Assembly (NCBI RefSeq): GCF_051622035.1
Contig: NC_135356.1
Coordinates: 2,356,001 to 2,420,000, forward strand
Direction of reading: 5' to 3'
Origin: Arctopsyche grandis
Lineage: Eukaryota; Arthropoda; Insecta; Trichoptera; Hydropsychidae
DNA length: 64,000 nt
The notes under the pieces were generated by a model. It saw nothing but the letters and a program-made list of their open reading frames with translations. It searched no databases and was not told the origin of the DNA. The stretch's first letter is position 1. Every line of letters begins with the position of its first letter. Positions 6,001 through 37,800 of the stretch are shown here, piece by piece. The position numbers and the translations under genes are program-made.

Positions 6001-9000
6001 TGATCAGTAATCGATTCTGAGTTCGAATCCGTCAAAATCTCGAGTTCGAATTTTCGCATGATCACAAAACTTCATCTATTGTTACTACGTACATAGATAA
6101 AGTAAAAATGATAATTATGGGTGGAGATCTACATAAGTTAAGAATACTGTGTAAAAAAATATTGGTTTTAAATTGAAAACTGTAGATTTAGATAATTGAC
6201 TAGTGAACATTCATCTTTTTACAGTACATAGTAGATTATATGCTGATATCAAACAATATGCAACTAAGGCTAGTAAATAATACGATTGATAACTCCTATA
6301 CAATCTATTCCGAACAATTAACATTGTTATTCAAAATTGAAGGCCTTTTGTAGTTATATTTATATTGTATCTTAAAGTAATATACCTATTAACTGATGTA
6401 ACTCACTAAAAGACTTAAATTATTTACAATTTAATTTTACTTTCGATCCAATTGTTATTGAACGTGTATAAATGTCAATGTGCATTACATTTCTGCCGTC
6501 GCTGTTTTTTTTTCAATTTTTGTTTAACGGAAGCTGTCGGTATATTTTTAATATATTTTTTTTTTTCATGGAACTTGGCCGCCTTGCTCCAAATCAACCC
6601 TTAGAGTGGCCCTGATGTAGTTCATTATCCAGTAATGTAATCATAATCTGTAATATAAAGATGAATTTTTGTCTGCGATGTAGATCTACAAATTTAATAT
6701 ATTATCTGAAACTACAAATATATTTATTTGAGGCTACATAAAAAATTAGCTAAATTTTTTTAGATTTTTTTCGAACTTTCATCCCACTGAGCTACTTTGG
6801 GGAGTTCTTGCATTTTTATTTTATATTAAAAAGTTCATACTAATGTATGATGATGCAGATGTTTAATACTTTTCATAAATCATGATATTGATAAATGTAT
6901 AATATAACGACTAAAAGCCATGCACTTTCAATTTTCAATATGAGAAATGATTTTAATATACATATGTATTATAAATAAATAAAACTGTATTTTGTTGCAT
7001 ATGCGTGTTTATTTATGTATATATATTGCGTAATTTTATATATATTTTAAAGGTCAGTTATGTAGTTTAAGCTCATATTGCTAAGCCATTCGTAAGATAT
7101 TTATTGTTGATGCGATAATTGCGATTGTTCATAGGGTGAGTGATCGATTGTAACATTTTATGAGGTGACCGTTGTTCGTTTGCAGGAACGACAGCAGCAG
7201 CCAGTACTGGATGGGTGTGGAGAGAGACCAGAACGACAAGAACAACTGGAAGTGGCTGAATGGAGACGACGTCACCGTTTCGTTCTGGAACTTGCCCGGT
7301 GGCAACGGAGACTGCGCCCGCTACGACGGCAGCAAGGGTTGGCTCTGGTCCGACACCAACTGCCTCACAAGCCTGAACTTCATCTGCCAACATCGTAAGT
7401 GTCAACATTCGGACAGAGCTTCAAGCGCGACTGCATTATATTGTTTTCCATTGTATAGTAATATGATAACTAGCCTAGCGGCGTTTGACCAAATGTGCGA
7501 ATTTAGCTGTAGGTATCTATATCCGGATCATGAACATGATGTTTATTGTGGTTATGTGTATTTTCGCAGAGCCCAAGTCTTGCGGACGTCCTGAACAGCC
7601 GCCCAACTCCAAGATGACGGCTCCCAATTACGACGTCGGTGCAAACGTGGAGTACTCGTGCGACAGTGGGTATCTCCTCGTCGGGCCCACAACCAGAACT
7701 TGCCTGGAGACTGGATTCTACAACGAATTTCCACCTGTTTGTAAAAGTAAGTGTTGAAATGACAGAAACGGAAAGCATGGAAACCGATTCATGACATACT
7801 TTAACTTTGGAATGTTAAATATTGCTCATTTCCGACAATAGTGTACCAACTAAAAATTTGTGATTATTTAGAAGGCTTTGAAATTTTATAAATTTGTCAT
7901 TTTACAATACCATCTTAGCATAAGTCAAGAGCTTTTACCAAATTTCTATTGGTGAAAGTTGCATATTTGATTTTTCATTTTAAGGATGTAAAGAGATTTA
8001 TATTTGATATGAAATTTTTAATTTATTTCTACTCTATGTATGTATGTAATATATAGATTAAGATTGTGAATAAATTATTTAATTAAAATGTAATGATTTC
8101 CTACAAAATTTGTTAGTTTGATCATAAAACAATTCAGCGATTTTAAGTCGAAGATATAGGTTGACCCTTTTTCATTCCAAATTGACATTTGAAATGGAAA
8201 AGGATTAATTTGAAATGAAAAAGGGTCAATTTGGAATGAAAACCCTGTAATAATAGAATTATGAATATTAAAAATCTGATGTATGTTCGGTCAATGTATC
8301 TGAAATATGGAAAAAATTTAGAATTATAGTATTTTTTGCTAAATACACATGTATATTTGGAAATAGCAGCATGTAAAACGTTTTCTTCTTGTTTTGTGTC
8401 AGGAATACAGTGTGGTTATCCAGCCGATATCAACAACGGTGGCTACCAACTCATCAATGGAAGCATCGGATACCTCAGTCAAGTCATTTACACATGCGAA
8501 GAAGGATATGAAATGATTGGCAGAAGCATGTTGACGTGCGACATTGATGAAAGGTGGAACGGTCCACCGCCAAGATGTGAAGGTCTGTTGGAAATACTTC
8601 TAAAAAGTTCTATTTGAACAACTTTTAATTAATTAATACAGTATAATATCAAATACAAAGGCATTTATTGATTTTTATGACAATTTTAGCAATACAATGT
8701 GAGCCTCCACCTCAAATAACCAATGGAAAGTACGCTTCTAACGTGAACGACACATCTTTTGGAGCTGTTGTTGAGTATTTCTGTCTGAGAGGGTACGCTC
8801 TCAACGGAGCAAAGCGGATCACATGCCTATCCAGTGGCCAGTGGGACAGCCCAGCTCCAGTTTGTAAAAGTAATAAATTAAAAACATTAATCTACATACA
8901 TATGTACATATATTAAGTGATGTCGTCCAATTTCTGCAACAACGCATTTAAAAAAAAAACTTCAATATGTATATAGAAGTTTCCGGAAACTCTCGGAAAC

Positions 9001-12000
9001 AACAGATGACAGAACTGCCCGTATAGGTGTATAATAAAAATACTATTAATTAATTCATTTCAGTTGAGGAGACGCAGACGACGGTCACCAGTACAACGGT
9101 GCACCGTTCAACGAGACCGTTGACCACGCGTGTCTCGGCTCGACCGACGAGACCCACCTACACCTACAAGCCCGTTTTCACCACAGTCTCTCAACAGCCA
9201 TCTAGTACTGTGGAGCAGACGAAACCCACCAAGAAGATATACAATAGGCCAATAACGACCGAAGCGGACGTGACCAAGAGTGGCAGTGCACACGTGCCGC
9301 AGATAATCATAGCTTCTCATCCCCAGGAGAAGCACGCGATAGGCACCCACAACAATATAGCATCAGATCAGACCCCCAGGGTGAACATACCGCTATCCGT
9401 AGACGGAGAGAGACGAGAGACGCACACTGCCAAATCTAACCTGGGCGTTATAATAGCCCTCGGAGCGTTTGGAGGTTTTGTATTCTTAGCAGCCATAGTG
9501 ACAACAATAGTCATACTAGTGAGGAGGTAAGTGTCTTCTGCGTCTTATTTCTTTAAATTTCATCGTATTTTAAGTATTGAAAACAGAAAAAATAGATTAA
9601 ATACAGAGTGGGGTGGAAACAACTGGATGATTTGTATCTCGAAAACGAACACTTTGATTGAAAACTAAATATTCCATCAACATCTAGTATAGCATAGCAA
9701 CGTGCAACTATATAAATGTAGTTTGGTATTATTTAGATGGTGAATATTTGTTTGTCAATAAGTTTTTATTTTCAAAATGCATATCTCTTATTGTTTCTGC
9801 TCACATTCTATATATGATTGTTTTCATCTGCACGATTCGCACACAAATTGTAAATTATATTTAGAAAAGTGACAATAATAAAGATGAAATCGTTTGAATA
9901 CTGTAACTTTAAGAATGCAGAGCTTTCAGCCACGCATACAAAAACATGCAATTGAGTATTGTTCACTATTTGCCTATTTTTGTATTATGTAATTTGTTCA
10001 CACAACTCTTGACGTGTTAGATTAGCTTACACGCGTTCACATATAATACATATATAGAATTTTGTATTCTTAATATACAAAAATAATGGTAAATACATCA
10101 CATTTGTCAAAAGAAAATGGCGGCACTAATTGTCGTAATTAATATTTTATTTTATTTTAAAACAAGATTTAGTCATATTTAAAGAGAAGTTCAATTAATA
10201 TACATTCGTATTTTGTAAAAGTGATGAATGAATTTTACTTTGGTCTCTGTTTTGATACTATAGCGTAATTATATTAGAAGATACAAGCCTAGAAATGTAT
10301 GTATGTATGCTAAATTATTAGTAAAGTCAATGATAACTTGTGCGGTAATATTAAAAAATGATTTGGTATGATTACAAGAAAGTTAATCCGACACTTTAAG
10401 TTTTAAGTTATATTTTCACAATCACAAATATTATATTTATATAAATCGTAAACTGTAGTGTTAATTCTTCGGTGGAAAGCCTCTGCATGATGAAAGTTCT
10501 ATTATATATGTTTTCATACACAAAATTACACTTCAATTTTTTTTCTGGTAACTTCCAACAATTGAATATCCATTTATATAAAATTTAGATCAATTATTCA
10601 TTAAAATCAATAATCTCAATATTTGACTAAAGCATCAAATCACGCTTTGTGATGAAACATCCGATAGAGTAAAACCTGGTTTATCGGACATAATTTCACA
10701 GAATTATATCAACAGTTGTTTGATTTTTATAAATTAAAGCGGGCATTCAATGAAAGATTTACTGGCAGATTTACGATGGACAAATCTCTCAACTTCTTTT
10801 CTGAGAATCTTCTATGAAACAAAATATTATTTTATCGAATACGATTTTGAGGTTATGTTAACATAAAACCAAACTTTATTGTTGCAATAAACACGACAGC
10901 TACCATTACAAATAGGATCACCCAACTGTTGTGAACAAATCTGTCACCAGACAAGAAGCTAAACAGATAAATTGCTAGACAAATCTTTACATTAATGCCT
11001 ACCTTTAGATTCAACTCTTCTCCGTACTGTATCGGTTCTGCTAAATCAAGGTTTTACCCATATTGATATCGTACTATGAGCAATTTATACTTCATATACG
11101 CTGAAGAACCCACTTTGAGGCTCAGGTTGCGGGTAAAAAGAAAAATAATAAAAAAGAAAACAATCGGTGGGCTTAGTCGTTGAGTAGGTCAGCCGATTGT
11201 TGGAAGTATGAGCCTGATGCTAATGCGAGACGATTTAACAGTTCGGCGCGGCCCCGAAAAAAGCACATGTTGCCACCAGCTCGAGATGTGCCATCACGCT
11301 GGTACACTCTGCTGGCGCTGCCATTTCCCGACCAGCAGGTGGGACGGCGGGAGTTCTCTCGCACCTACCGCTCGGCACAACGAGCCGGCTACTTCTCGAA
11401 CCCCTTATAGTAGCGGGCTTCGCTAAGTGAAAACACTCACCAGTGTGATACTATCTAAATTAGTTGACTAAGGTACGACGGACAGAACTCATTTTGCTAT
11501 CACGAGCACGAACGACACCACGGGTGAGATGTCCACAAACGTATATATGTACAATACACGGTGGGCAAAAACACAAAAAAAATCCACTACACACTAATCT
11601 AATGATAATTCAATTTGAATCAAATTATAAAACAGGCAACGGTACAATTTTTCATCTGGACAATAATCCTCGGCAGATTTTTTTCATTAAAATACAAATT
11701 TTCAACAAAATGTTCAATATAGCAATTATTTCATTTTACAATTTGACTAAATCCAATGCGGACAAAGTTGCATTGGAATATGGTTAGTGAACTTGTTGTT
11801 TATTATGTGAAAAATTTACAGATATGTGAGTGATTAGATTTGGCTAAATCCGATGCAGACAAAGTTGCATTGAATGATTAGTGAACTTGTTGTTTACTAT
11901 GTGAAAAATTAACAAATAAGTGAGTCATTTGATATCATTCGACTATGCATAGCCATTTTGCATTTTCATTAATTTTATAATACATATAAAAAGGCAAATA

Positions 12001-13507
12001 TTATGACTTAAGAAAAAAAATAGTTTGACTGAGAAAGCAATGACCCAATAAACATTTGGTATTATGTTTTTCGTAAAATAAAAACAACCATCTGGATCCT
12101 TTAATCTTCCAGCCACATCACATCTTCCAATTGCATATAACAGTATCAAATAATTAAAAAAACTGATTTTAATTCACATTTTAATGAAAAAACTGTTGAA
12201 AATTGGGCCTCGGGTGGAAAATAGTACCATTAGAGTAAATGTACCAATGAATAACCGTTAAAAATATATTTGAAATCAGGTTTTGATTATTTTAAGCATA
12301 GGAATGTATTTGAAGTATAGTTCGAATATTTTAAATTGTAATTATTGTCTTATGAAAATGTATATACATATAATAATTAACATTAATATTAAAAAAAACC
12401 GGATTCAGTTTTGCAGCTTAAACATTTGAACAAATAACAAAAAAATATATGGATGATTACAAAATAAAGAAAGAACACATTTTTAAAAACTTGTGTCAAA
12501 TAGTCATAAAATACGAATACTGTTTATAATATTAATATTTCAACTTGTTCTGTAGTTTTTTTTTTTTTGTATTAGAAGTGTATCGTCAAAACATGATGCT
12601 ATTTTCAAATATATTCAATTCGGTCATTCATAAGGGGTCCCAAAACCTATGACACAATTGTAAAGTGAGATTGTATTTAAGTTCTTAATTAATGTAGTTT
12701 GTAATTAGTGGACTTATATACAAATATTGGATTAGGATAAGACTTCTTAAAAAGTAGCACCTTTCCCACCGTGTATGGACATACATACGAGTATATGCAG
12801 CGACGGGCACACAAAACACCAAACCACAGCAAACAAAATAGACCTCCTCGCGAAGTATATTTCATCACTGAGCACGTATACAATATTTAAATCGCATGTG
12901 TAATAAATCTTGTACAGCAGTTTGTAACGCATCAATCATATTGGCACCAGCAGCACTCGCAACCAAACCAGGCCGACGGCAGATTGAAACATCAATTTAA
13001 CGTTGTCGTCTAATATTTACACTCGACTCATGTGCTTCGTTTCGTTTCTTTTGCAGGAATCGTAGTGCCAAACATTATCGTCATCGTGTGTCACCGGACT
13101 GCAACACGGTGGCCTCGTTCGACTCGTCCAGCTCCGAGTCCAGGAACGGGCTGAACCGTTACTACCGACAGGCCTGGGAGAACCTGCACGAATCGGCCGG
13201 CTCCAAGGCCGCTCTCAAATCCCTGAACCACTCTCCGCTGAAGCGCCGGGAAACACTGGACGATCCAATCTCATACAGGAATGCCCATCACCGAGTCAGC
13301 AACGAGGGTATGAGGGACGGCTCCGAACTGGTCATATCCGATGTGGCGGCCTATCCCCCCAGGGGTCAACACGACAAGAGAAGACACCACCATCATCATC
13401 ATCATCACGACCCCCACTCGAGCACACGTCACAAAGAATGGAGTGGACGGGAGAAAGACCGAGATCGGGACTCACGCTCCAACCACAACCATAAAAATCG
13501 ATATTAA
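1..13507 (+). CDS. Selectin-like transmembrane receptor (FTP + C-type lectin + 3 sushi domains), 5'-partial
   Basis: Coding exons read by splice phase: 3-180, 272-704, 7186-7394, 7570-7746, 8403-8582, 8690-8869, 9064-9526, 13057-13507. They join in frame to 756 residues ending at TAA 13505-13507; the 5' end is off the window. Domains in order: FTP/fucolectin (about residues 1-145; PWWYVNL and LVRLDFGKPC), C-type lectin domain (about 149-273; CYIFYNRQ, WMGVERDQND, WLWSDTNC, NFIC), three CCP/sushi modules, one per exon (274-332, 333-392, 393-452; four Cys each plus a Trp or Phe near the last Cys), a Thr/Pro-rich stalk, a membrane helix (about 578-604) followed by Arg-Arg, and a 150-residue cytoplasmic tail rich in Ser, Arg and His (His8 run). 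This architecture is that of insect furrowed/CG9095-type proteins, cell-surface lectins of the epithelium. The usual QPD/EPN sugar-binding triplet is absent (LPGG stands there), so Ca-dependent sugar binding is doubtful. Which orthologue it is cannot be settled from the partial sequence. Confidence 0.92.
781..1377. mobile_element. MITE, GGG-terminal family, copy 1
   Basis: A 597-bp copy of the repeat found inverted at 32565-33183 and truncated at 40547-40820. It begins GGGTACGACTTAACTG and ends CGTTTAAATTGTCCC, so the ends are imperfect inverted repeats. It contains the shared string GCAGTCTTCCGCTATTGAC. The 9 bases on each side are only roughly alike (CTTAAAAGT, TCTTTAAAA), so the target duplication is decayed here, whereas the 32565 copy has an exact one. 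It has no coding capacity. Confidence 0.75.
3663..3981 (-). mobile_element. tRNA-derived SINE (AACCAGCAGAAT head)
   Basis: Read on the minus strand it starts TTAACCAGAACAATAGACTA, has a polymerase III A box (TAGTGGTTAGCATA) and B box (GGGTTCAAATCCC), then a body with CCTATCAGAGTTTGGCAG and a tail ending ACCTGTTAGACCTTCCTGG. The same head recurs at 57399 and the same tail at 18862, 19318 and 19497. These internal promoter boxes are the mark of a tRNA-derived SINE. Confidence 0.8.
4120..4332 (-). other. Unexplained 70-codon ORF in lectin intron
   Basis: An open frame read from the minus strand gives a protein with WDQMSWEYISEYVTITIG and a basic stretch RRRRCPERPAP. Its base composition is more GC-rich than the surrounding intron, which suggests a coding past. 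It has no recognisable motif, no clear splice sites and no start context. It could be a fragment of a transposon protein; I do not recognise it. Confidence 0.25.
5095..5960. repeat. Degenerate tandem array, about 145-bp unit
   Basis: The motif CTACTTCCGGTT or a close variant recurs at about 5103, 5244, 5408, 5550, 5695 and 5844, a spacing of roughly 142-165 bp. Each is followed by AT-rich sequence with phrases such as GAAATTTCAGTTCGATA. The array runs into a segment near 5985-6100 (GTGAAAACGTGATCAGTAAT, TTCGAATCCGTC) that looks like the tail of the same interspersed repeat. It is non-coding. Confidence 0.6.
8156..8252. repeat. Small foldback repeat (TTTTTCATTCCAAATT family)
   Basis: Inverted arms are seen: GGTTGACCCTTTTTCATTCC on the left and GGGTCAATTTGGAATGAAAA on the right, with further alternations of TTTGAAATG between. 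The same vocabulary builds hairpins at 22617-22792 and 31990-32075. It lies in an intron between the first and second sushi exons of the lectin gene. Confidence 0.65.
9527..13056 (+). other. Last intron of the lectin gene (content note)
   Basis: A 3.5-kb intron between the membrane-helix exon and the cytoplasmic-tail exon; donor GAG|GTAAGT, acceptor TTTTGCAG|GAATCG. It is mostly plain AT-rich sequence. Two things stand out: a GC-rich open segment at 11173-11420, listed separately, and a near-duplicated stretch at 11735-11935 (GACTAAATCCAATGCGGACA, then GGCTAAATCCGATGCAGACA), a tandem duplication of about 90 bp. Confidence 0.7.
11173..11420. other. GC-rich open segment inside lectin intron, function unknown
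   Basis: About 240 bp of GC-rich sequence in an AT-rich intron, open in more than one frame. On the plus strand one frame reads PRKKHMLPPARDVPSRWY and ends at TAG near 11408; a minus-strand frame starting at 11364 is also open. Splice sites are not convincing. Candidates are an alternative 3' exon giving a different cytoplasmic tail, or a fragment of a mobile element (the trailing GCGGGCTTCGCTAAG is typical of insect repeats). I cannot choose between them. Confidence 0.3.
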
Positions 13508-20059: not shown

Positions 20060-20905
20060 TATACATATATGATCACATTAAGTTATAGTGAAAAGCCGTA
20101 TAAAGAGAGGTATACACAGTGTGGGTGTATTTACATTAACTTGCTAATATTCAAATACAAGAGAAATTATTTAGGAGTAACGTTCAATAAAAGAATGAGA
20201 TGGGCACCTCAATTGAGGCAGCGAAATGCAAAGCGATGCGGGGTATATCCTCAATATATCCAATATTTAATCGCCATAGTTCTTTATCAACGCTAAATAA
20301 AGTAAAATTATATCGCGCGCTCATATTACCATTATTAATCTATGCTTCACCTGTATGGAATAACGCCTCGAATACTAACCTTTCCAAGCTCCAAGTAATA
20401 CAAAATAAATCCCTAAAAATAATTTATAATACACCCATATATACTAACCTGAAAAAACTGCATGCCATATATAATATTCCGTTTGTTACAGACGTTACTA
20501 ACAAACTAACCAGTAGATTCTATGACAGAATCACTAATAACCATACTAACACACTTGTGAAGAGTCTCAGTGATTACAACAAAATGTCTATACCCTTCAG
20601 GTATAAACACAGATTACCTAAACACAATCTGCTTTAGGTCATCGACTTTAGAGAGTCTTTAATTCATATTATGTATTAGATGTATTATGAACATTTATAA
20701 GGATTGTAAATAGGTTTTTGAGCTCTTTTTCCTATTATGATTTAGATTAACATTAGAATAATATAATACTGAGATTACTAACCAAATTAAATTAAAATTG
20801 TAAAATAGAAAATGATCAGTAGATCAGTAGCTATTAAAATAGATATAAGATGTATTGTGAACATAATTTCGTAATAATAAAAAGCATTTAATAAAAAAAA
20901 AAAAA
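20060..20905 (+). mobile_element. Jockey-like LINE 3' end (reverse transcriptase C-terminus)
   Basis: Frames from 20069 and 20200 together read as the end of a non-LTR reverse transcriptase: YLGVTFNKRMRWAPQ, then LYRALILPLLIYASPVW and KLQVIQNKSLKIIYNTP, ending at TAG near 20637. A frameshift separates the two parts. A 3' untranslated region follows with GATCAGTAGATCAGTAGCT and a poly-A tail near 20892. It is a dead 5'-truncated copy. Confidence 0.85.
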
Positions 20906-20944
20906 ACTAATTGAAAAACACACATTATCTGATATACTATTTTT

Positions 20945-21430
20945 ATTATTGGGTTTTAAAATATGATAACATCAAACATCCGGTTTATGTTATGTATATA
21001 ATACCTATTATTTAATGTGATTTTTAAATGATTTTTATTATTACTAAATTATGTTCACAATGTCTTATATCTATTTTAATAGCTACTGATGTACAGATCA
21101 TTTTCTATTTTACAATTTTAATTTAATTTTGTTAGTAATCTTAGTATTATATTATTCTAATGTTAATGTACAGCTTAATAGGAAAAAGAGCCCAAAAACC
21201 AATTTACAATTCTTATAAATGCTCATAATAAATCGAATACATAATATGAATTAAAGACTATCTAAAGTCGATGACCTAAAGCAGATTGTGTTTAGGTAAT
21301 CTGTGTGTTATACCTGAAGGGTATAGACATTTTGATGTCATCACCGAGACTCATTTCACAAGTGTGTTAGTATGGTTATTAGTGATTCTGTCATAGAATC
21401 TACTGGTTACTTTGTTAGTATGTTAGTATG
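20945..21430 (-). mobile_element. Inverted copy of the jockey-like LINE 3' end
   Basis: The minus strand repeats the C-terminal coding end and 3' untranslated region of the element at 20060-20905 (plus-strand text GATGACCTAAAGCAGATTGT and AGCTACTGATGTACAGATCA). The two copies lie tail to tail with about 50 bp between them, forming an inverted repeat with arms of roughly 400 bp. Confidence 0.8.
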
Positions 21431-21745
21431 TCAATAATCACCGAACCATATTTATGTACAATAAATTAAAGAAAATAATGATTGACTTCTCAAACTCAAC
21501 TGTGGCATATTTAGCCCACTCTGTATAGTTAAAAAAGTGCTCGAAATCGAGTATGCTTGATCCGGAAGTGTGGTGGGTAGATTTCGCAGGGCACCGTGGG
21601 CGTTCAACACTGCCCACTAACTTTGACCGGAAGTGTTCCAAAGCCGGGAAGGGGTCAAATGAAATATGGGGGGGGGGTTGGCGAGATATGGATACGATGT
21701 GAACGACATTCGGTCACAGACAACGGTAAAGATTACCGCGTCACC

Positions 21746-24700
21746 ATGCGCTGTCTCATCACAACCTGCCTCGTCACACTCCTCGGTAAGAGTAAATTTC
21801 GATCGGCTGGAAGCTGGCTCTCTCACACTACCTAGCGTCACGTTCAAAATATTCACTGGCCATTATTAACAACAATACCGAAGACTGCTACCGATGACAG
21901 GATAGTAGTTTAGTGTGAATCGACCCAAACAGGAAGCCGTGTGTGGGTTCGAGTCTTTCCGAGAGTCCGTCCAATCTACATAGTTCTACATATATATTTG
22001 TACTCTTGTATTTTAATTTTTATATCAAAACAAAACAAATTTTGGATCTAGTAGAAATGTGCGTGTTTAAAGTGTGATAAAACCCATTACCAACGGTCGT
22101 TGTAAATAATTAAATATAATTGTTGATAAGTGGCTTGCGTACATCAGTGGCGTCTAAGTTCATTTAATTTGATTGTAAACTGTCTGAATTATAATGGTTA
22201 GGTTAAAAATGGTTCATTTTCTATTTACATTATAAAATAATTAAACAAAAAAACATATAATTTAAACTTCTCACTCAGTGGAGCTCATAAGCCTAATGAA
22301 AAATAAGTTGTGTGATGAAATGTAACTTTTCATTGTTTATGTCTATGTAAATTTTTGTGTATTTTTTTAAGATAATAAGTGGTGAAATTATGAACTTTTT
22401 GCAACATCAAGTGTTGATAAAAAAAAAAACCTAGCTATCTTATCAATAAGCTGCTCACTTTCTTCAATTGTGAAATTTGATGGAAGATTTTTGAACCCAT
22501 ACAAATCCTGATGAATATTTAATGCAAGTTTTTAAAAATTTAGAATCAAATTTTTGTATATTATTTCAATATATTTTTTAATTTTCTGAACGATTCGGCC
22601 ATTTTTTTTATTTATACAGGTTTTTCATTCCAAATTTATCCTTTTTCATTTTGAAATTGATCCTTTTTCATTTCAAATTAAACCTTTTTCATTTCGAATT
22701 GACCCCTTTGAAATGAAAAAGGGTCAATTTGAAATGAAAAAGGTTTCATTTGAAATGAAAAGAGTCAATTTAGAATGAAAAACCTTTATAAAGTATAACT
22801 TTTCTGTGTTTCTTCTACGAGAGTTTACATATACATAGTTTTCATTTGAATGGTGAAATGTTTTTTGATAAGCTGCGAAAAGAGCGTTCACAAAGGCCTT
22901 GACTGAAAATCACAATCGGTGAACTTCTGACATAGACCTTGAAAATTACCATACATTTCAAAAAGCATTAAACCCGGATGTATTGTTTAATCTGTTTAAT
23001 AACATTGTACCGTTTCTGATTTGTGCACATCAATTGAGAACCAAAATCATAAAGCATAAGAATCTAGACTTATTCTAGACCTATGTACTTTTAAACTACT
23101 TCACATGTCACTCAATGACAGTTCATCACTCTCCTTTGCTCATTATAGACATAGGTATGTTCTATTTTCAGAGCTGTATTTTCTAAATTTCCGCCTAAAT
23201 GCAAGTATGAAATGTCTAAATACAAAACTTTTGATTTGTAATTGTGACCTAACCAGAGCCGGCCTGAGGATTTTCAGCACCCTGGGAAATTACTAGAATT
23301 TACACCCCCCCCCCTCATTTCATTAACACATGCTACAAAATATAATTTAATATATAAAATTGAATGTCTGTCTCGTATAGGCTCCCAAACCACTCAACCG
23401 ATTACGATGGAACTTTCAGGATTTGTTGTATGCATGTCCGGGAAGCTTACTGTGAAAAAACCTCTTAATAATAATATTCGTAATTACGATTATACCGACG
23501 CGAAAGTTGGAAGCGTCATTGTGTTGTCGAGAAAATGTGTTCGTTGGTAACCACGTTACCAGTTGGTTTATGACGACACGGCGTTGAAGAGACGTTAGTT
23601 GAGCTTCAATCATCACTTGAAACGGGAACGGGAATTGAATGCCTTATTCTGGCATTGAAACGCATGCCGGGTTCATCTAGTAATATAAATAAAATACAAA
23701 CTAGTACTAAAAAATATAAATTAAAATAAAAAATTGTTTTAGTCTAAAAGAACCTGCCTCATAACATTGACCACAGTGAGTGGCCTCTTTTCAAAAGACC
23801 AAAATAAAGTAACCTCACCGTTATAAAAATAAAACAGACTACAAAACAAATAATCGATTTCTTTAATCCAAAAATTGGTATTGAAAATAATAGCGAATTT
23901 TCAGTTGCACGCCCCTGATGTATGTTATCTATTACAGCGTATTTTCCATATCCATACACGAACGCGAAGAGCCAATGACACCCGTGACCAACCTCGAATA
24001 TGAAAGACTATAAATTAAATTACATATAAATTAGATACATTGCCTATAATTAAAATCCAAAATCGAAATTTTTAATGAATAAAACTGCTTAGAAAATTTC
24101 ATCACATGTTGTGTTGACAATCAATGAATGAACAATGATTAAATAGGCATAGATATGTACATATTATATAGTAAATATCGTTCACTTTTCGCTATCTGCC
24201 TCCACACATAGCCGGCATTGACCTATTCATTGCCACAAGAATAAAGAAATAATACTATTACTTTATCTGACCGATAATAACAATATACTTAGATTGATCA
24301 ACATCGATTTGCAAATATATTATAGATATATATATGATTTGTTTGTTCGACTCTGATAGACTGCAAGCGATTTGATGGTCGGTGACCTAGTCTGGCCCAC
24401 TCAAAATGGATATTTATTATAGCGCATCCACAGCATCTGCAGCGTCGGCGTATTACACTTCTCATTGCCCCATCTGCATCAATAATCTTCATCATTAGCG
24501 ATATAAACTGATATAAGTACTGTGCGACATCTGTCCAAAACCCTCCAATCCACTCATTCAGTCAAACCTCCCCAATGTCTAATTTCTGCATCTCTATTTA
24601 GCCTATGGGTCGTAAAACACCAGAATAAAGTCGATCAGCATATTTAATGGGTCGTAAAACATCTCTAGCAAAAACAATATTTTTGAGATAACATATTAAA

Positions 24701-25602
24701 GTCATAAATTTTGCAACATTTTCGTATGGTGGAAACCGTCTGATTATTTGTAGCATGAAAATGAACACTTCAATTGAAACAACACACTGTATAGGATAGA
24801 AATACGCCACAAAGTCATTTCTTGAAGATCTGTCATCATTCTGATGAAGTCTGTCGGATGTGAACACAATGTCGGAATGTAATCTTTGTCACTTTTTTGA
24901 TTATTGATTTTGAAATAGTTTGGTTCCGAGAGTATGAAGCTCATATGTGTAAATCGTCTGAAGACCGTTCAACTCTTCCCGTGGATCTGCTCAAAGTTGA
25001 AATTGTATGTTCGTCGACCTCAAACTATCCAGGAAGTGAAGACAAACATCTGAATTGAAATTCAACATGAGATATTGACTCACCAGAGTGGAATTATCTT
25101 CAAATAATATTTTGCAAGTAGAAGGTGAATGCAATGCTTATGCTAGATCAGTTCTATTAAAAACTTCACTTCAAGATTATGCCGAGAATGGGTATTGTGG
25201 ATGTGAGGTTTCCACTATTAAGCCAATAAATCTCATCCGAGTGAAACATACAAAAAATGATTTTGTGACATAGCGCTATCTTATTTAGCTAGAAATATTT
25301 ACTTTTCATTTAATGTTATTAATTCGTCTCATTGTTTATACCTCACCTGTTAATATGTACATATATAGAGGGGTAATTGGATTATTAGTTACATTGCGAT
25401 CGCTCAAAAGACAATTTTGCCATGAAAATCGCGAATACGGAATATTTGGCACTCGAGTTCTCGTTAGTATGATATTTATCGTTAGTATGATGGACTTTTC
25501 AGCTGCCAGATGTTCCGTTATAGAGATTTTAGTGACTTTTGGACGAGCGCTTTGTGAACAATAATCACCGAATTCCATATAGAAATAGTAATCCCTTACT
25601 TG

Positions 25603-25634
<32 letters not shown>

Positions 25635-27527
25635 CATTTTGTTTGTTTTTTTAAGCTGAAATTGGTCATGTATTTAATTTTCCATTTAATTTACATAGTT
25701 AACAAGCCAGCCCTTGGGTGATTCTCGTTTGTACGTTTGCATAAGTCGAGACGAAACGTATCGATTAAACAATTGCTTGTAAATTACCTTCTGGCAACCG
25801 ATTCCGGAGAATGAAATGACATTGACCGGTTTCGAATGCAGAAACGTTTAATGGCTTCACAATGTGCGTCCCATTTCCTGTGTGATATGCGATTTTGATA
25901 TGTAATTCTGTATATACAACACACACGTATGTATCTGTATATTCCATGATTGTTGTTTTGCGCAAAATTTGTCAATCTAATCTAACATTGCCGACGTGTC
26001 GAATAAATATCAAACTATGTTGCATGCCAGTGTATGATTTGCAATACATTTAGATGTTCATGTTGAATTGTCAATTAGTCTTGGAAATATTGGGTTGTGA
26101 TTTGGAGCAAGCGCATCAAGGATGTAAAATACAAGGAGGTACCTGCGCGTGTGGTTTCGGTTGCAAATCGGAGTACAGATACACCTCCAATAGAGAATGC
26201 AGAAACGCACTGAGAGGTATGTTTCCCGCCGGGGATATATTTTCGCATTCAAATCTGAAAGAAGAGAAATGTATACATTTACTTTTGATTTTTAGAGCGA
26301 GGGATAAATATTTGTTCAAGATTACCTTGTCTAAACAAAGGGAACTGCATTCAAATTACACAAGGGCCCGGTTTCAAGTGCCGATGTGAAGGAACTGGCT
26401 ATTACGGAGATAAGTGCGAAAAAGGTAACATTTCTCGATTCAAACAGCTTTACAGAACGGGGCAGAACAATTAAAAAGAAGTATTTTAAATGAAATCATT
26501 ATGCCCGAGTCATTTTAAGGTCAACCTGGTATGTTTATCATAAACTACGAAACTCATTAAATCTCTGCTCGGATGCTATCCTTCAACTCCTAGATAGTTT
26601 AAAGTCAACAAGCATACATTTTTCCCTCAAATATGTGATTGCATTGGAATAAATCTGAGAAACAGGACTCCCGAAACGAGAATATTTCATCCAGTTGAAA
26701 TCAAATCGTTCCAAAATTTCAGGATAAGTTGAATAGCTATAATGGATTATGCTCGTTTGCGTATTAACCCTCTGAATGCTGACCAACGCCGATCGGCGTT
26801 TTGCCAACAATACGCCGATAGGCTTTGCTTTTTGAGTATGTTAAAAATAAACAAGAATATTACCCGCATTGAAAAAAAATGCATTAAACATGGCTCGTGT
26901 AATCCATGTCAATGTTTTTAAAGACTGGTTTACATCAGAATTTCGGAATTTATAGCCATAGCAGAATTTCCCGATGGAAATCCCTAACTGCTGAGTATTT
27001 TAGATTGTGAGCATTACATTTTAATAACAATGAAGAAGATGGAACTAGTTTTGGAAAAATACATTCATTAATAGACTTCTTCGTTTATTATATATTGTTG
27101 CAAGATATATTAGAGAGTCTAAACTCACCTTTAAAAAACTCGAAATCCTCGACGGTAGTCATCTAGGGTTTGTTTGGATTAGCTACAATTTTTATACGTG
27201 CTTTCTATTGGATATATAAATAATTCTTTCTCTAAGAGGGCTTTCAACAGAAAAGACGCCAGCACTGAAAGGGTTAAAGCTTGTTTCATGTCCGATAGAT
27301 CTCATCCGAGTGGCGTTATCTTCAAAAAAAAAAAAATGACTATAATAATGCGATATACTATTTAGAGTGTTGTAGATAATTTTTAAGTTACTAATTGTTT
27401 CTGCTACGCCGTACATAAAAGTGTTAGTAATATTATTATGAATTAACAGATATATATTTTGATATTTCCAGCTTGCCCTATGGGAGGATTCGCCGTCAAA
27501 ATACCTTACGAATGTATAGTGATTTAA
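21746..27527 (+). CDS. Small secreted Cys-rich protein with one EGF-like domain (unrecognised family)
   Basis: Four exons: 21746-21785, 26079-26216, 26296-26424, 27472-27527, all three introns in phase 1, giving exactly 120 residues and a TAA stop. Exon 1 supplies a signal peptide (MRCLITTCLVTLL) with Kozak-like TCACCATGC and donor CTCG|GTAAGA. Exon 2 (residues 14-59) has a Cys-dense module (GCKIQGGTCACGFGCKSEY). Exon 3 (60-102) is a canonical EGF domain: six Cys spaced C-x4-C-x5-C-x10-C-x-C-x8-C, with GTGYYGDKC. Exon 4 adds a two-Cys tail (ACPMGGFAVKIPYECIVI). There is no membrane helix, so it should be secreted whole. The exon 1 join is inferred over a 4.3-kb intron but fits phase and signal-peptide logic exactly. 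The role is unknown; extracellular ligand or matrix factor is a guess. Confidence 0.72.
22617..22792. repeat. Foldback repeat of TTTTTCATTTCAAATT units
   Basis: Four units of about 22-24 bp on the left (TTTTTCATTTCAAATTAAAC and variants) face inverted units on the right (GGGTCAATTTGAAATGAAAA), so the 175 bp forms one hairpin. The outer ends are AGGTTTTTCATTCC and GAATGAAAAACCT. It lies in intron 1 of the EGF-type gene. Confidence 0.75.
23345..23690 (-). repeat. Inverted copy of the ACTAGCTGAACCC repeat
   Basis: The minus strand matches 18062-18410 closely along its length; plus-strand landmarks are AATTGAATGTCTGTCTCGTA and CGCATGCCGGGTTCATCTAG. It lies in intron 1 of the EGF-type gene. Confidence 0.75.
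25430..25573. mobile_element. Degenerate copy of the TTCGGTGATTATTCCGC foldback MITE
   Basis: GCCAGATGTTCCGTTATAGA, ATTTTAGTGACTTTTG and AATAATCACCGAA match the arms of the element at 35389-35565. The left arm is eroded. It sits in intron 1 of the EGF-type gene. Confidence 0.5.
26768..27273. mobile_element. piggyBac-like MITE, copy A
   Basis: Flanked by TTAA on both sides (26764-26767, 27274-27277), with ends CCCTCTGAATGCTGACC and GACGCCAGCACTGAAAGGG. TTAA duplications and CCC...GGG ends are the hallmark of piggyBac-type elements. A second inner pair, GCCGATCGGCG, lies near one end. There is no transposase frame. It lies wholly within intron 3 of the EGF-type gene. Homologues are at 39223-39792 and 62819-63381. 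Confidence 0.85.
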
Positions 27528-27923
27528 ATGTGTAGCAAGCGACAAGTTTATCTGTTTAAAGGTAAATCACAATAATTGAGTAAGCATAGATTTAGCAATA
27601 GAAATTTAATTACGAATGTGAAAACTTTCTGTCGACGAGCGTACAATTTTGGCAAAAAGGTTATTTTTAACGATGTCTAAAAAGCCAATAACTATGGAAG
27701 ATGAAATTGTGAAGAATTGAAGAATATACAAACTGGAATGAAGTGTAAAAATGAAAACTCCCACCTAGTAATTTAATTGTTAAAATGTACATTCATTATT
27801 ATTATATACATAAATATAAAATTTGAAAAAAAAATTAAAACTCTTTGAATTTAATTCATCGCTTCATAAATAAGCAAAGATAATTATACTAATATATAGT
27901 ATAATCAGGTATCAAATTTTATT

Positions 27924-28387
27924 GGTTGTGGCTATTTGCAGGTACTATATCTGCGACAGCCGCAAAGCCTTCTGCGCATGCGCGTGAACTGTCACTGTCA
28001 GCGTGTTTACTGTTAAAATTTTGTTTTAAGCCTCTTAAAATTTAGTTCGAACTCGTAAAGTGACGTAGAGTAAAAAATATAATCCAAATTAGTTAATATT
28101 ATCAATTGTTAGGAAATTATTATCATATAAAACGTATAATACCTACATACAAGTACAAGCCGCGAACTAGCTAAATGATATAAATCTATTATAATAACGT
28201 GCGAAATTAACGTGCCTCATGAATAATGAACGATTGATTAAACAAGTCTAGCATACATTAAATGTAAGAAATTATAATCGGATTATAAGTTCACGCGCAT
28301 GCGCAGAAGGCTTTGCGCCTGTCGTAGACATAGTACCTGCAAATAGCCAATAATTCGCAGATATAGTACCTGCAAATAGCCACAACC
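27924..28387. mobile_element. MITE with long inverted repeats and exact 9-bp target duplication
   Basis: Ends GGTTGTGGCTATTTGCAGGT and its complement. The inverted arms continue through AAAGCCTTCTGCGCATGCGC, giving about 75 bp per arm. The flanks AATTTTATT (27915-27923 and 28388-28396) are identical. The right arm carries an extra internal duplication of its outer 34 bp. Nine-base duplications with long terminal repeats fit Mutator-like elements. It is non-coding and lies about 400 bp beyond the EGF-type gene's stop. Confidence 0.85.
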
Positions 28388-28396
28388 AATTTTATT

Positions 28397-31300
28397 TAGT
28401 GTGACTCTAAGGACAAGGTTTGCACTCATGTCAATATTAAAAAATTAATTATTTTCAGCAAAGTAACATAATATCAATTTTTTTTAATCTGATACATGTA
28501 AATTATTAAAATTAAAAAGGATTTTTTTAATGGAACACAGTTTGGGATACACCGGCATATGTATAGGAGACAGTAAATTTCAACACCAGATTGTAGACTG
28601 ACTAGTATATTTTATTTCACGGAGAATATTTTTTTACGTAAAAAATAAACATAAACATTTTTCCTTATTAAATTCAAGCCACACGAACTTCGTTTCAAAT
28701 GTTGACACACTTCAAAAACGGACGATAAAAGGGTGGAAGAAATATTTCGAGAATACAACTCCACGCCTGGTGGTCTCCGACACACACACATACATACATA
28801 CATGTAAGTCATGAATCAATTTACAATACAGCATTCATAAATAAATACGGAAACGACAAAAATATTTCCAACACCGATTCTAACAGCAAATTATTATCTA
28901 TATTTTTCAATAAATATTCAATTGAATTAAAATTAAATTTTCGGTGTTACAATATGTAGGTACACGAAAAACAGACATAAACAATAATAAAATTTTGCTA
29001 ATAGCAAACAAATAAACAGTCTCTATGCACACACATACATACGTATGTATGTATGATAGACATGTACGTACATACAACGCTATAATAAATTCAGATTATG
29101 TAGTTTTAATCGAAAGCATTTACATAGTAGCTAGAATAACGTAAAATCACACATTTCTATAAGAAAAATTAATATTAACATAAAGCTAAAGATCAATCTA
29201 AGAGGAATAAAAACTGAAGGAGTATTACCAGTTTCAAATTTAAAAAACTAAATCAGTCTTTAATAATGTTTCATCACAAATGTATTTTTTTTGTTTTTTT
29301 TTTCACCTCTCTCTCAGGATACAATAGAATATCTTCAAAACAACAAAAAAAGAAAATAGAAATAATAAATGCTCCAAGTCGGTTACAGTTTCTTAAAACA
29401 TTACTTAGATGACAGAAACTGTATACGGTTACATCATGTTTAGCACTAATTTATAATATAATGACAGTAATTTTATTTCTATTCATGCCTTATGATGATT
29501 TATAAATGAAAGTACATAATTGTGTATTATTATAGTGACTACAATGACCAAAAAACACATATTATAAAATATTGTACGACAAATACACATTTATTAATTT
29601 TTAGCTCCATTTATATGAATATGTATGTAGTAGGTATAATAATCTATAACACTAACTGAAGGGCGAGGGTAGAAGGGCGACGGGGAGGGGGCGGAGGTTC
29701 TAATTGAAGCAAAAATTAAAATTTACAAACATGTATAAAAAATACTATTATAATTATAATCTACCGCCAATATCGTGAGTTTTCAATTGGTTTCTCAATT
29801 TATTTTCAAGAAAATAATATAAATATAATACACATGTATATAGGCGGGATATCGGATCCATATCCAGCCATATACATACATACATACACCATTCTTATTG
29901 GTGCTAATAAAGAAGCCCTTTAAATATTACTCAATAAAGATGATGCTTTATTTATTTATTAATCAATAAAAATGAGGCTAAAAAAAGACAAAGTGAGAAT
30001 TGATATGTTCTGAAGTATATTTTTTAAAGATTAAGCCCGTACTCGGTAATTAATAACACCTGTCCATAGATATGTAGTTTTGTAATATATATATATATAG
30101 TAATGTATATAAATTTAAAAAAAAAATACTTGAAAACCCACGATTTGTATACATGTAATATTTTAATAATGCAATCAATATCATGAACATTTAACACCTT
30201 TTACATGTATTACAAAAATCGTTAATACGCATCGGCAAACATAAATACTCAAGTTAATATTTGAGTATATAATTGCTGGATGTCAATTAAAATTCTATAA
30301 AATAATTTATTTTTTATTTTTCCCACAGATTTTTTTATAAATAGACTCAATGTACAAACGAAAAAAAACAACAAGATGTCAAGATCGAAAAAACACTCAG
30401 AAGTACACGTATTATTTTTTAAAGTTACGATACATAAAAATACTACTACAAAAATGCCAAAAAATTGTATTTCATACGTAATATAAAATTTACACGAATC
30501 CGTATGAATATTTTCACTAAACATTTGGCAAACTAGCGTATACAATTGCGTTTCTGAAAATTAAAATCATCTACCGAAGAAAAACAACGTATGTAATGTG
30601 TAATTATATGCATACATAATATTATATTTGTATCGCTGATAAGCAATATGGAAAACTGTTATTTTTTTTTTTTTTTTGGCACTTTTAGCATAAAATAACT
30701 GATACAGATTAGCAAAGTTCACCGTTGAAATCAAGTACGTATTACATTTTGCAGTTGGAATGATAAATTTTCCATGAAATCAGTTGGAACATAATTTTAT
30801 GCTCGTCTTCAAGTTTCTTATTACACAGTAAATATACATGTGTGTTATACATCTTATTACAATAGCTGTAATAATATATAAACATCGATAAAACATTTAT
30901 AGTACTATAAAAATACACTCATTAATGATAATTTGAAAAAAAAAAATAACGAAACAGTATGCGAATGGAAACTTGTTTTAATCCTATTTTAGAAATATTT
31001 TATAAATTTTTACACAAACATTAATTCAGTAATACTGTCGTTTGGTTTTTACAAACCGTCAAAAGAAAATGTTGCTTGTTTTGGAGTTGAGAAAAATGTT
31101 TCATTGTTACATAAGAGCGTAGGCGTATATATATCGAGTTACTTCAAATAACAAGATTCTCGAACGAGCTTGTTTATGTATACCAACAAGAGGACATTTG
31201 CTTCGGTAAACTCAAACAATTTAACATTTACAATTTGACATCTATACATTTATTTATTCAGAATTGAAAAATACATTGAGGAAATTCCAAATAAACATGT

Positions 31301-31861: not shown

Positions 31862-34800
31862 TCATTTACTATCCTCCGCAATGGAATCTCTGAAAACAGG
31901 ATTAATGAAATTACATAATTGCACAAAAAAACATCATATATATTATATGTACTCTGTAGTAGCTATTTGATAAGTCAACAACTTTCATTTGTTACAGATT
32001 TTTCATTTCAAATTAAACCTTCTACATTTCAAATTGACCCATTTTCAATGTTAATTTGGAATGAAAACCCTATAGTAAATTCAAATTATAAAAACAACTC
32101 TTTTCTCTAGAGAAGAATAATAAAAAAATATCATATTTTCATTTGATAGCATAATAAAATCCAAATAATTGAAAACCAAGACTTTTCAATATGCTTTGAT
32201 ATTTTATACAACAGAAAATGACTTATCTTTTGGAATTTAGTTAATTAAAAATTATAAATGAACACTAATAGATATTATATTTTTATATTATATATAAAAA
32301 TATAATATCAAACTGTATATTATTACATTCTAAGCAAACTGTATATTATTTTTTGCTAATGAAATTTTGAATATTTAAAATATATACATATACATAAGTA
32401 CATATGTTACAGTGAAATTGTTATTGTCAGTGAAATTATAATTTCACTAGTGCGATTATAATTTGTCTGACTCAAGCAGAGAGTACGGATCTACATACGG
32501 AACTATACCCAGCGAGAATGTAATTAGATACGATTATCACTGAAAGATCAGTGTAATTATAATTGGGAACAATTTAAACGTCCATTTTATAAAATAAATG
32601 TACATTTAAAAAAATTTTTGTACATTACATAAAAAAATGTGTGTGCATTTCTAAATGACGGATACAGATTGCATTAGAAACTTTGCTTTGATCATTGAAA
32701 AAAATATTTGCTACTTAAAAAGCGGATGAAATGTGCATTAGAATGACAGATGAACTGTATCGGCAACGTCGCGAATACCAAAATACGAACCGACAACGAC
32801 CAACGCTTCTCTCTACTGGATTCCTTCTTTTTTACTATTCAGCTTGCGAGCTTCGACACCTACGACTTCGACTCCGACTCTACGACCCGACATCATCATT
32901 CATATTCATACGTAAACAAAAGTAAACACTTTCGACATTTGACAGTTGTCAATAGCGGAAGACTGCAACGCTGCCACATTTTTTCATCTATTCTAATGCT
33001 AAAATCTATTTTTTCGAATGATCGTTTCATATTTTTTAATGGTCGCTTTATAATGCCAAAATATTTTATTCGAAGCACAATACGAGATTGTTTAATGCAC
33101 CGAAAATAGTGCGAATTTTTAATGCACAAACATTTTTTTTAAAATACAAAGTATTTTTTTCAATGTTCAGTTAAATCGCACCCATTATAATTTCACTGTG
33201 ACATATATAAATTCATCCCTTACTCTCCGTAAGAGTGTTTTGTCAAACGATAAAAATTCCAGATAAATATTAACCTCGGATTATACAGTTTTCTTGGACG
33301 GAATCCTCTAGTACCATCAGGACCTCGTGGTTTACGTATCACGACCAAACGCGGACCAGCATGTTCTTCTAAAGAAATAGTTCTTAGACGATTTATCAGT
33401 CGTTCGGGACGAGTTGTGGAACTCAAGTCACTGCAAAACACGCATTTTTAAATAAACTTGACACAAATTGATCGTATCGGTCGTTCTATGATTATTTCAT
33501 ATATTCTTACTTCACTTTAGTAATATTACAGGCAGACGATTTTCCAGTTCTTTGGTTGGTTACTAATGTATATTCTACTGTATCTCCCGGTTGCAAATTC
33601 TGAGAGTTTCGGACTTCTGTCATATGAAATACCACCTTTTTTCCATCTTCAATTTCGACAGAAAGAAATCCAAAAGCTCCTGAAAAGAAATCGAAATCAA
33701 ACCTGTTGCAAGAACTTTTACATTTAAATAAATAAATAATAAAAAAAAATAGTGACCTTTTATCGATTCTACAACAGAGCGTCTTTTCTTCCGTATAACA
33801 ACCATTCCCGACGAACGACTCTGCGCATCTATATGCATGGAATTATCGCGTTTACCTAGATTTAAAAAATTACAGTCTGGAGAGCCGCCGTTTGCGGTGT
33901 CGTTATATCCTGAAAATAAAAATCAATTTGATCAGATCAATTCATAAAATATTACAAACGATGTGACATGTTCACAGATGAAGTTTATTTACCGTGTGAT
34001 GATTGGTCGTAGTCTCTATAACTCCTACTATTGCCACTATAAGATTGATAAGAATGATAAGATTGATAGTCATATCCGTGATGACCAGCAGACGATCCAG
34101 ACAAATCCAAATGATCAGGACTTTGTTTGTGGAAGTAATCACCGTCTCTTCCTGTTTCTGTATCATTACATCTATCGTAAGCACTGCGGATATATAGGCC
34201 ATTTAAATTAATAAAAATAAACATTAAATCAATATAATAAAAATAAAGTGTAACTGCTCAAAGTTTTATATACTATACACTCGATGCATTTTAATAATCA
34301 TGTTGCGATATAAAAAAAACATTGCAATATACATCTATTATTTTTACTTGAAAATTATTATCGAGGAGGACACACTTTGAGCAGTTTTTTTACATATTTA
34401 AAATAGCAGCACCTAATTTTTGTAAGGTTGCAAGCAGAAACCTTTCCGTTACGTTGATTTTTAAATAGTATGAATTCCACCACATCGCCTGGGTGCAGGG
34501 GATTGGAAGATGCACACACTTCATTAGAATAATATATAAGTTTTTTGCCATCTTCCAGTTGGTGGGATAGAAATCCGTATGAACCTGAAACACAGCGTTG
34601 CAATAATAACACGATTATGACAAGTATGCACCAACAGAATGGTTTCCTACTTTTGGCAAAGTCAACGGTGGCCCGTCTTTTCCTTACGCACGATGTGATA
34701 TTAGTGGCTCGGTCTTCAACGTCGGTCTGAAAAATTACCGCATCACCGAAACGCAAATTAGCACGTTTACAAGCTAAACTCATGATCCCAAACTCGAATC

Positions 34801-37800
34801 GTAACCCATTATGAGTCTCTATTAAACCTGAAAAAGACAAAAAAAGAAGAAAAAAAAACGTATTGAACCGATCGAGCACAAACAATGTTGTTGGTAAATG
34901 ATAAACAAAAAAAACCTGTATAAATCGGTTGTTCTAAATTCAACGCCCGAATTGGTCGAGTTACGACTCCCTCTACGATCTCGTCGGTGGCCACCGGCTG
35001 CAATAGCGAACCTTTTGGCAAGACTCGTACCAATTCAGCGCTATTACAACCTCCCGGTGGAGCTGCTTGATTTCCCATGAAATATTCTACTTCTCTACCC
35101 AGTTCCAAGGTATCAATATTTCCTTGAAAGTTACTATAAATCAAAGATTAATACAATATATATACGTCAGAAAATCAATAGCATACATAATATTAAAAAC
35201 AATGCAATAGAAAGCCAAATATTAATATTCGCCATATATATATATATATATATGCAAGACATTGAATATTAAAACAGTACATGAATATGCGCTAATAATT
35301 TTTTTAGATAAATAATAGCACATAAAAGTTCACCGTGTCCTCAAAACCAAGTCAAAATTGTTAGTTATAAAATATATATGTATATATATGGTTCGGTGAT
35401 TATTCCGCAAAAGTCACTAAAATCTCGATAACGGATCATCTGGCACCCAAAAACTCGCATCAATTCACGCGAAATATTGTACTAACGAGAACCCGAGTGC
35501 CAGATGTTCCGTGATCGAGATTTTAGTGATTGCTTTTTGCGGAATACTCCGTTTAACATAATATATATGTATAATAGAATGAATTATTGATATTGAATAA
35601 TAGTTATAATTTAATATATGTATATTCGGAGGATAGGTGAGCATCTTATAGTTTCAAAGTCATATAAAAAAAATGCAATGCTCCTATAACATAATCTTTT
35701 GAAAATATATAAATATAATAGATTCGCAATCATCATCACAAGGCATACAAAAAGTAACGGACCATTCTCTACCCGGAATTTGATATTTAATCATTTTTTC
35801 AATCAGGATGCAAATAAAACCAATTTGTTTTCAAAATTCATTTGAAACGATTTCAAATATCAATTTTTCAACTCCCAGGGTTTGTTTCTTTGCAATAAGT
35901 AGTGAGTAATAGCATTTAAAGTTGAGAAAATACGTTTTGCAACATCAAATGCAGATTATTTTCATTGTCCCCTACTAATTCCTATTGTCATAATGAAGCT
36001 ATTTTCATAAATGAACCTTTGCTATTTGAAATATTGAAAATAAGAAAACTTTATTTGCATTTTAACAAGAAAAAAACAAAAAACAATGGAAGCGGAGTGG
36101 AAAATGGAATCGTTATCTTTTATTTTTTATATTGTACATATAAAAAGTAGTAAACATAAATCGCCAACATTTAATAAAAAGAATTATAAATGAAATTAAT
36201 TTTCGCATCCAAAATAAAAAACAAGATAAAACATATAACATATTTACCTGAAATGAAAATATATCTCTTTGTCGCGTTCTTTGGATTCGATGAAACCAAA
36301 GCCGTCTTTCAGAACGGCTATAAATCCTTGAAGCATAGTTCGAGATCCATTACTATAAGAATCGTGTGATCTTTTAACCATCACACGCATTCCGACGACT
36401 TCCTTAGTTCTTTTTATCTGAAACAAAGAAAACATCACACATGTAATATACATTTAATGATCAACAGTAGAGTTGGTAAAACTAACAACAGCTTACTTGA
36501 CATATGTTGAAAATAACTTTATCTCCGTCGCGTGGAAGCTTTTTTCCGATAATATCTTTAACATAATAGGGTACAGTTTTACGCATTCCATTCAACTGGT
36601 AACTAATAAGGCCATTTGCTTCCTAACCAATGAAATAAAAAATAGTCACACAAGTCTTATATAATAACGAGAAAAAAAATAGTGATTCAACGATTTGTTT
36701 GCGTGAAAGTTCTCACCTGTGTTGTCTTTAATAAGCTATTTATCGGTAAAGTGACTTCTTTTAGTACGATCCCTTGAATGTTTTTCTCTAATATTACCTC
36801 AAACTGCACAGATCCCAGCGGTAGATGTTTAATCCTGATAGCCGATGGTCTCGAGTTGGAAAATCCGGCTGCAGGATCGACCGTATATTCAATCTAAACA
36901 TATATACATGCATAAACGTTCAATAGTAACGATGATAAAAATTTGGGAAAGTGGTAAAAGTAAACGCATACCTCATCTCCAACATTCAAAGTCTGATTCA
37001 TAGACAAAACTTCAGCGAAATGGAAGAAAAGAAGAGATTCACGCTCCACACACTTGATAAAACCGAAGCCATCCTTCAACATGGACACAATTCCTCTTTC
37101 GCGTTTTTCTCCGGAAACATGGAATGATTCGTCCAGTAATGATATATTCGTCGCTCGCTTCAACTGATCGCGGCGATCCGTCGCCACCTATTTAAACGTG
37201 AAAACAGTCGTAAATTCGTATATATGCAATAATAAATTAGTAACAATAAAAAACAGAAATAATGTAATTACTTGAAATTTAACCCAATCACCGTGGCGAA
37301 GGGTGAAATCTCCGTTTTGATCCTTATCACCAAAAGGTACCTAAAGTATTACGGAATCAATATTGAAAAATTACATTTAAAGCACATTCAATTAAATAGA
37401 CTATTCTCCCGATTATCCAGGTATAAATTATCTATGAACAAATCCAGCACTTTTGTATTAAAACCTATGTATATTTTTTTATTTATAAATCGAATGTTCA
37501 AAACAAAAATTGATGTACAGATGTGAAAAATTTAAATTAATGGCAATTTTATAAAATTTGATAAAGAAAACATCTAGTGGTAAAAGCGTGATTAAAATGA
37601 TCTTTATTCACAACACAATGACAATTTATTGGAGTAAAACGACCAACAAAGATTTGACTACGACAATATAAAATCTCTTAGATATCATTAGAAAATTCAT
37701 GATATTGGAAAATGGTTAAAGATAACACATATTTATATAGATAGATTTTTCAGCTCTTTTTACTATTATGCTGTACACTAACATGGGAATAATATAATAC

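Follow-up and report, generated by a model that had tools for sequence, protein, structure and literature searches.

A probable four-exon gene for a small secreted EGF-like protein in Arctopsyche grandis

The window analysed here, a stretch of 64,000 nucleotides from contig NC_135356.1 of Arctopsyche grandis (Trichoptera), likely contains a real gene, of which the genome search revealed no second copy. Its small and probably secreted product combines an orphan six-cysteine module, an EGF-like domain, and a two-cysteine tail. Annotation easily overlooks short genes that are split into several exons and begin with a tiny one. The 120-residue product would be secreted. As far as its sequence allows a judgment, the protein is probably of an ordinary kind, and it is the cysteine module that lacks a family placement.

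Gene structure

The four-exon model is confirmed as sequence and has a complete frame (Table 1). The positions of the exons in the original prediction, their GT-AG borders, the phase (1) of each of the three junctions, and the length of the first intron (4293 nt) were all recovered. The joined exons comprise 363 nt, which encode 120 amino acids plus a stop codon and remain in phase 1 throughout; the first alanine codon of the tail encoded by exon 4 spans the junction at intron 3.

Table 1. Features of the candidate gene (positions in the window)
Feature	Position	Strand	Description
Exon 1	21746..21785	+	ATG plus 13 codons, probable signal peptide, phase-1 end
Intron 1	21786..26078	+	4293 nt, phase 1, weak acceptor TTGAATTGTCAATTAG
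Exon 2	26079..26216	+	Last part of the signal peptide, then the six-Cys module (about residues 14–60)
Intron 2	26217..26295	+	79 nt, phase 1
Exon 3	26296..26424	+	EGF-like domain (Cys 66–100)
Intron 3	26425..27471	+	1047 nt, phase 1
Exon 4	27472..27527	+	Two-Cys tail ACPMGGFAVKIPYECIVI and TAA stop
ATTAAA, possible poly(A) signal	27834..27839	+	About 307 nt past the stop, consensus match only

The ranks of the splice sites are rough because the scoring matrix was hand-set from the consensus. Among the 3283 GT dinucleotides on the plus strand of the window, the donors of exon 1 (TCG/GTAAGA), exon 2 (GAG/GTATGT), and exon 3 fall into the top 1.4, 0.4, and 3.6%, respectively. The acceptors of exons 3 and 4 are among the top 4 and 2% of 2899 AG dinucleotides; that of exon 2 (26079) is poor, with 32% of the AGs in the window scoring equally well. 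Exon 4 is backed by its open frame and good acceptor and by nothing else. The least certain parts of the model are exon 1 and the acceptor of exon 2. The AATAAA nearest to the stop codon is located at 28644.

Signal peptide and choice of the first exon

The joined start of the protein (MRCLITTCLVTLLVLEILG-C) forms a strong hydrophobic run (hydropathy window, 2.77) and is probably a signal peptide with a cleavage site near residue 19 or 20. Cleavage before Cys20 would leave 101 residues with 14 cysteines, which is an even number. In a survey of 210 phase-1 candidates for a first exon between 13500 and 26054, filtered by thresholds for donor and hydropathy, both thresholds were passed by only five, including the exon at 21746; one of the five is a listing artefact, in which exon 2 was read twice. 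An A at position −3 is present at 21746 and also in the candidate at 14698. The region around exon 1 has a GC content of 50%, a level reached by 4% of windows, and no TATA, initiator, or CCAAT words were found ahead of exon 1 (21501–21746).

The poor acceptor at 26079 and the presence of an in-frame ATG 25 nt upstream of exon 2 (ORF 26054–26389) leave an appreciable, if minor, chance that exons 2–4 are real and exon 1 is not. The protein would then start at ATG 26054 (MFMLNCQLVLEILGC...) or in another first exon, and the exon at 21746 would be coincidental. The best rival first exon (23115–23154) has a better donor than that at 21746 (3.98 vs. 3.42) and nearly equals its hydropathy (2.66) but carries a T at position −3, whereas the exon at 21746 has an A at this position, is followed by a strong donor, ranks first among the five candidates in hydropathy, and lies in a GC-rich stretch whose only match in the genome search (21440–21900) is itself. 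The start at 26054, by contrast, would give a poor signal peptide, which by eye contains Gln and Glu.

The EGF-like domain of exon 3

The six-cysteine EGF domain announced in the original prediction is borne out by matches in Pfam and the PDB. Exon 3 has both the six-cysteine pattern and a profile match of an EGF-like domain; by itself, it matches Pfam family PF00008 with an E value of 7.2e-4 and 20.2 bits, which is just under the cut-off of 21.5. With the whole protein as query, the PDB yielded Notch1 as the best match (E 4.2e-6 as the sum of three repeats, the best of which alone has 0.02), besides the EGF domain of COX-2 (E 0.0042). The cysteine spacing of the domain is 4-5-10-1-9, with GDKC at its end. 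A regular expression that we set around the known spacing of EGF cysteines occurs once in the six frames of the window, namely in exon 3, and was encountered once in 60 simulated windows (0.017 per window). Neither of two PROSITE patterns for EGF domains matches the 120-residue protein, nor do the sequence patterns of the modifications known from Notch-type EGF repeats (O-fucose, O-glucose, O-GlcNAc, Asp/Asn hydroxylation) or that of calcium binding.

The six-cysteine module of exon 2

The cysteines encoded by exon 2 are located at residues 20, 29, 36, 38, 42, and 54 (spacing 8-6-1-3-11). The module preceding the EGF domain had been described as eleven residues with four cysteines around CACGFGC; the four cysteines in question (29, 36, 38, and 42) actually span 14 residues, and the count rises to six when Cys20 and Cys54 are included. 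The claim that the protein belongs to no recognisable family held up better: the whole protein has no match to any family in Pfam or NCBIfam, and exon 2 alone has neither a Pfam family nor a significant PDB match (two listings at E 1.5 look like chance).

Two known cysteine-rich domains were considered and rejected. The C-x8-C-K start and the GC...EC end of exon 2 resemble those of Kunitz domains (by eye), but a profile of 11 domains, which were picked by pattern from the Kunitz loci of this genome, scores exon 2 at −0.5 bits (Kunitz_BPTI), and as good a score is reached by 223 of 500 shuffles with fixed cysteines and by 130 of 500 free shuffles. Somatomedin-B domains share the CxCxxxC core (again by eye), but exon 2 lacks their CC pair and is absent from the three Somatomedin_B matches in the genome (four candidates scored). 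A structure model of exon 2 (pLDDT 65) gave no fold match at E <= 0.001; the same was true for the EGF exon used as a control, so that such single-peptide models are uninformative.

Chance expectation and copies in the genome

Open segments flanked by AG and GT in phase 1-1 that comprise 30–75 residues and at least six cysteines occur seven times on the plus strand and three times on the minus strand of the window, as compared to 0.44 per strand in simulations. Exons 2 and 3 form an adjacent pair of such segments; pairs at a distance of 60–1500 bp were absent from all 100 simulated strands. The second real pair on the plus strand (7311–7508 and 8370–8582) belongs to the neighbouring lectin gene, where the segment 8370–8582 has the look of a sushi domain (by eye).

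The genome search covered 475.7 Mb in 189 contigs, scoring only the best candidates and skipping very common words. Among the best candidates, exon 2 has a single match at E <= 10, namely itself; the exon-1 flank likewise matches only itself, so that neither is an obvious repeat. No close paralogue of the gene was found among the best-scored genome candidates.

It is quite improbable that the exons are what remains of a larger multi-EGF gene, or a pseudogene derived from one. Repeat sequence flanks the gene on either side, and codon usage, which is uninformative (exons 1–4 are matched by 9, 23, 60, and 32% of open stretches of the same length), lends no support to a coding function, but the frame is open over four GT-AG exons. 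Moreover, the matches of exon 3 in the genome at E <= 0.01 (14 candidates scored) comprise only itself and three others with just 47–50% identity, so that no recent parent copy is seen.

Searches for relatives and literature

Although eight stretches in viral contigs matched a pattern, none of them encodes a relative, and tblastn against phages gave no match at E <= 1. Among 17 stretches from prokaryote genome contigs, one (L002, from a Chloroflexi MAG) encodes a "relative" by tblastn (query residues 23–61, 48% identity, with an E value of 4e-5 that refers to the candidate stretches alone). It is judged a chance match because the frame is one of several long, overlapping frames in a GC-rich bacterial contig and the EGF cysteine pattern is absent from all six frames of the surrounding 10 kb. 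A degenerate DNA pattern for CEGTGYYG retrieved one viral contig (L001), where the words of the pattern lie in an open frame of 380 residues; there is no EGF pattern across 7.5 kb. Peptide words from the protein and variants of CACGFGC had no match in a word search of the literature, and those parts of the publications on the topic that were available contained nothing that we recognised as describing this protein.

Neighbouring genes and repeats

The gene shares the window with exons of several others. Exons of a C-type lectin gene, which we take to resemble furrowed of Drosophila, lie within 262–13507 (+) and include sushi-like and transmembrane-like stretches (by eye); the matches to Lectin_C have E values of 4.9e-11 (7169–7591) and 0.073 (262–708), and 13001–13504 has no family in Pfam. 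An exon at 34358–34933 (−) encodes a cold-shock domain like that of CSDE1/Unr (CSDE1: E 5.4e-5, 23.7 bits, cut-off 27); the adjoining ORFs 33507–33842 and 34809–35147 look similar by eye. Xyloside xylosyltransferase 1 (XXYLT1) extends O-glucose on EGF repeats; it is matched by 55932–56378 (−) (PDB 4wlg, E 3.3e-22). By eye, the segment 58853–59413 (−) could be the exon for the N-terminus of XXYLT1; it has no PDB match at E <= 0.001 and a weak Pfam match to the unrelated BssS (E 0.0012), which is below the cut-off.

Upstream of the gene, the stretch 20191–21420 holds a fragment that by eye resembles a non-LTR reverse transcriptase (no family in Pfam) and, behind it, the end of this fragment in inverted orientation (244-nt arms, 94% identity); the stretch stops about 326 bp before exon 1. 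Downstream, MITE-like pairs of inverted repeats (27914–28397; arms of 62 and 43 nt with 95 and 93% identity) begin 387 bp past the stop codon. Within intron 3, the segment 26534–26600 has two matches elsewhere in the genome (81–85% identity), and the intron may therefore hold a dispersed repeat.

Possible function

Growth factors and regulators of the matrix are found among the small secreted proteins with EGF domains. The mature chain (about 101 residues, 11 kDa, net charge +5) would contain up to 14 cysteines, which may form disulphides inside each module. Its action would be extracellular, either that of a soluble ligand or that of a matrix or receptor adaptor; binding would be conferred by the orphan six-cysteine module, with the EGF domain as a scaffold or second contact.

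The original prediction had suggested a receptor ligand, a possibility that lacks support in the case of the EGF receptor but leaves room for a ligand of another receptor or a matrix factor. The genome encodes a Spitz-like protein elsewhere, whose EGF domain shares 59% identity with that of Drosophila Spitz (E 2.1e-16) and has a spacing of 8-5-12-1-8 and the end GQRC. The protein described here has neither this spacing nor the GxRC end, and a role as EGFR ligand is therefore improbable. The vertebrate motif CX7CX4-5CX10-13CXCX8C matches neither the present domain nor that of the Spitz-like protein.

A ligand of the Spitz or Vein kind without a membrane anchor would agree with a single EGF domain and probable secretion. 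In PMC4914847, having only one EGF motif is a criterion by which candidate ligands are chosen, and two planarian ligands are reported to be secreted and to lack a transmembrane domain. The same paper, however, describes the known EGF ligands as made in the form of transmembrane precursors, and no transmembrane stretch was seen in the present protein by a crude scan, which also misses the signal peptide. Together with the deviating spacing and the GDKC end, this makes such a ligand most improbable, and the protein is, on sequence grounds, probably no EGFR ligand.

For the secreted protein with its orphan module, a bolder and rather unlikely reading is that exon 2 encodes a new disulphide fold and that the gene specifies a conserved, unstudied extracellular signal or matrix factor of insects acting via a receptor other than EGFR.

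Should the gene have orthologues throughout the insects, it would lend itself readily to knock-down; should it have none, its product is a secreted protein specific to the lineage, whose cysteine module is unassigned.

Comparison with known EGF proteins

The Spitz-type ligands of the EGF receptor have in common with the present protein the single EGF domain but differ in the cysteine spacing and in the GxRC end. The EGF-like domains of Notch (PF00008) resemble exon 3 in their six cysteines, the C-x4-C-x5-C start, the C-x-C motif, and the last cysteine; however, there is only one domain here, and its C3–C4 and C5–C6 loops comprise 10 and 9 residues. COX-2 (prostaglandin G/H synthase 2) is an enzyme with a length of about 600 residues, whereas the protein of A. 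grandis has no catalytic domain, but the last loop of their EGF domains aligns without gaps (TGFYGENC in COX-2, TGYYGDKC here).
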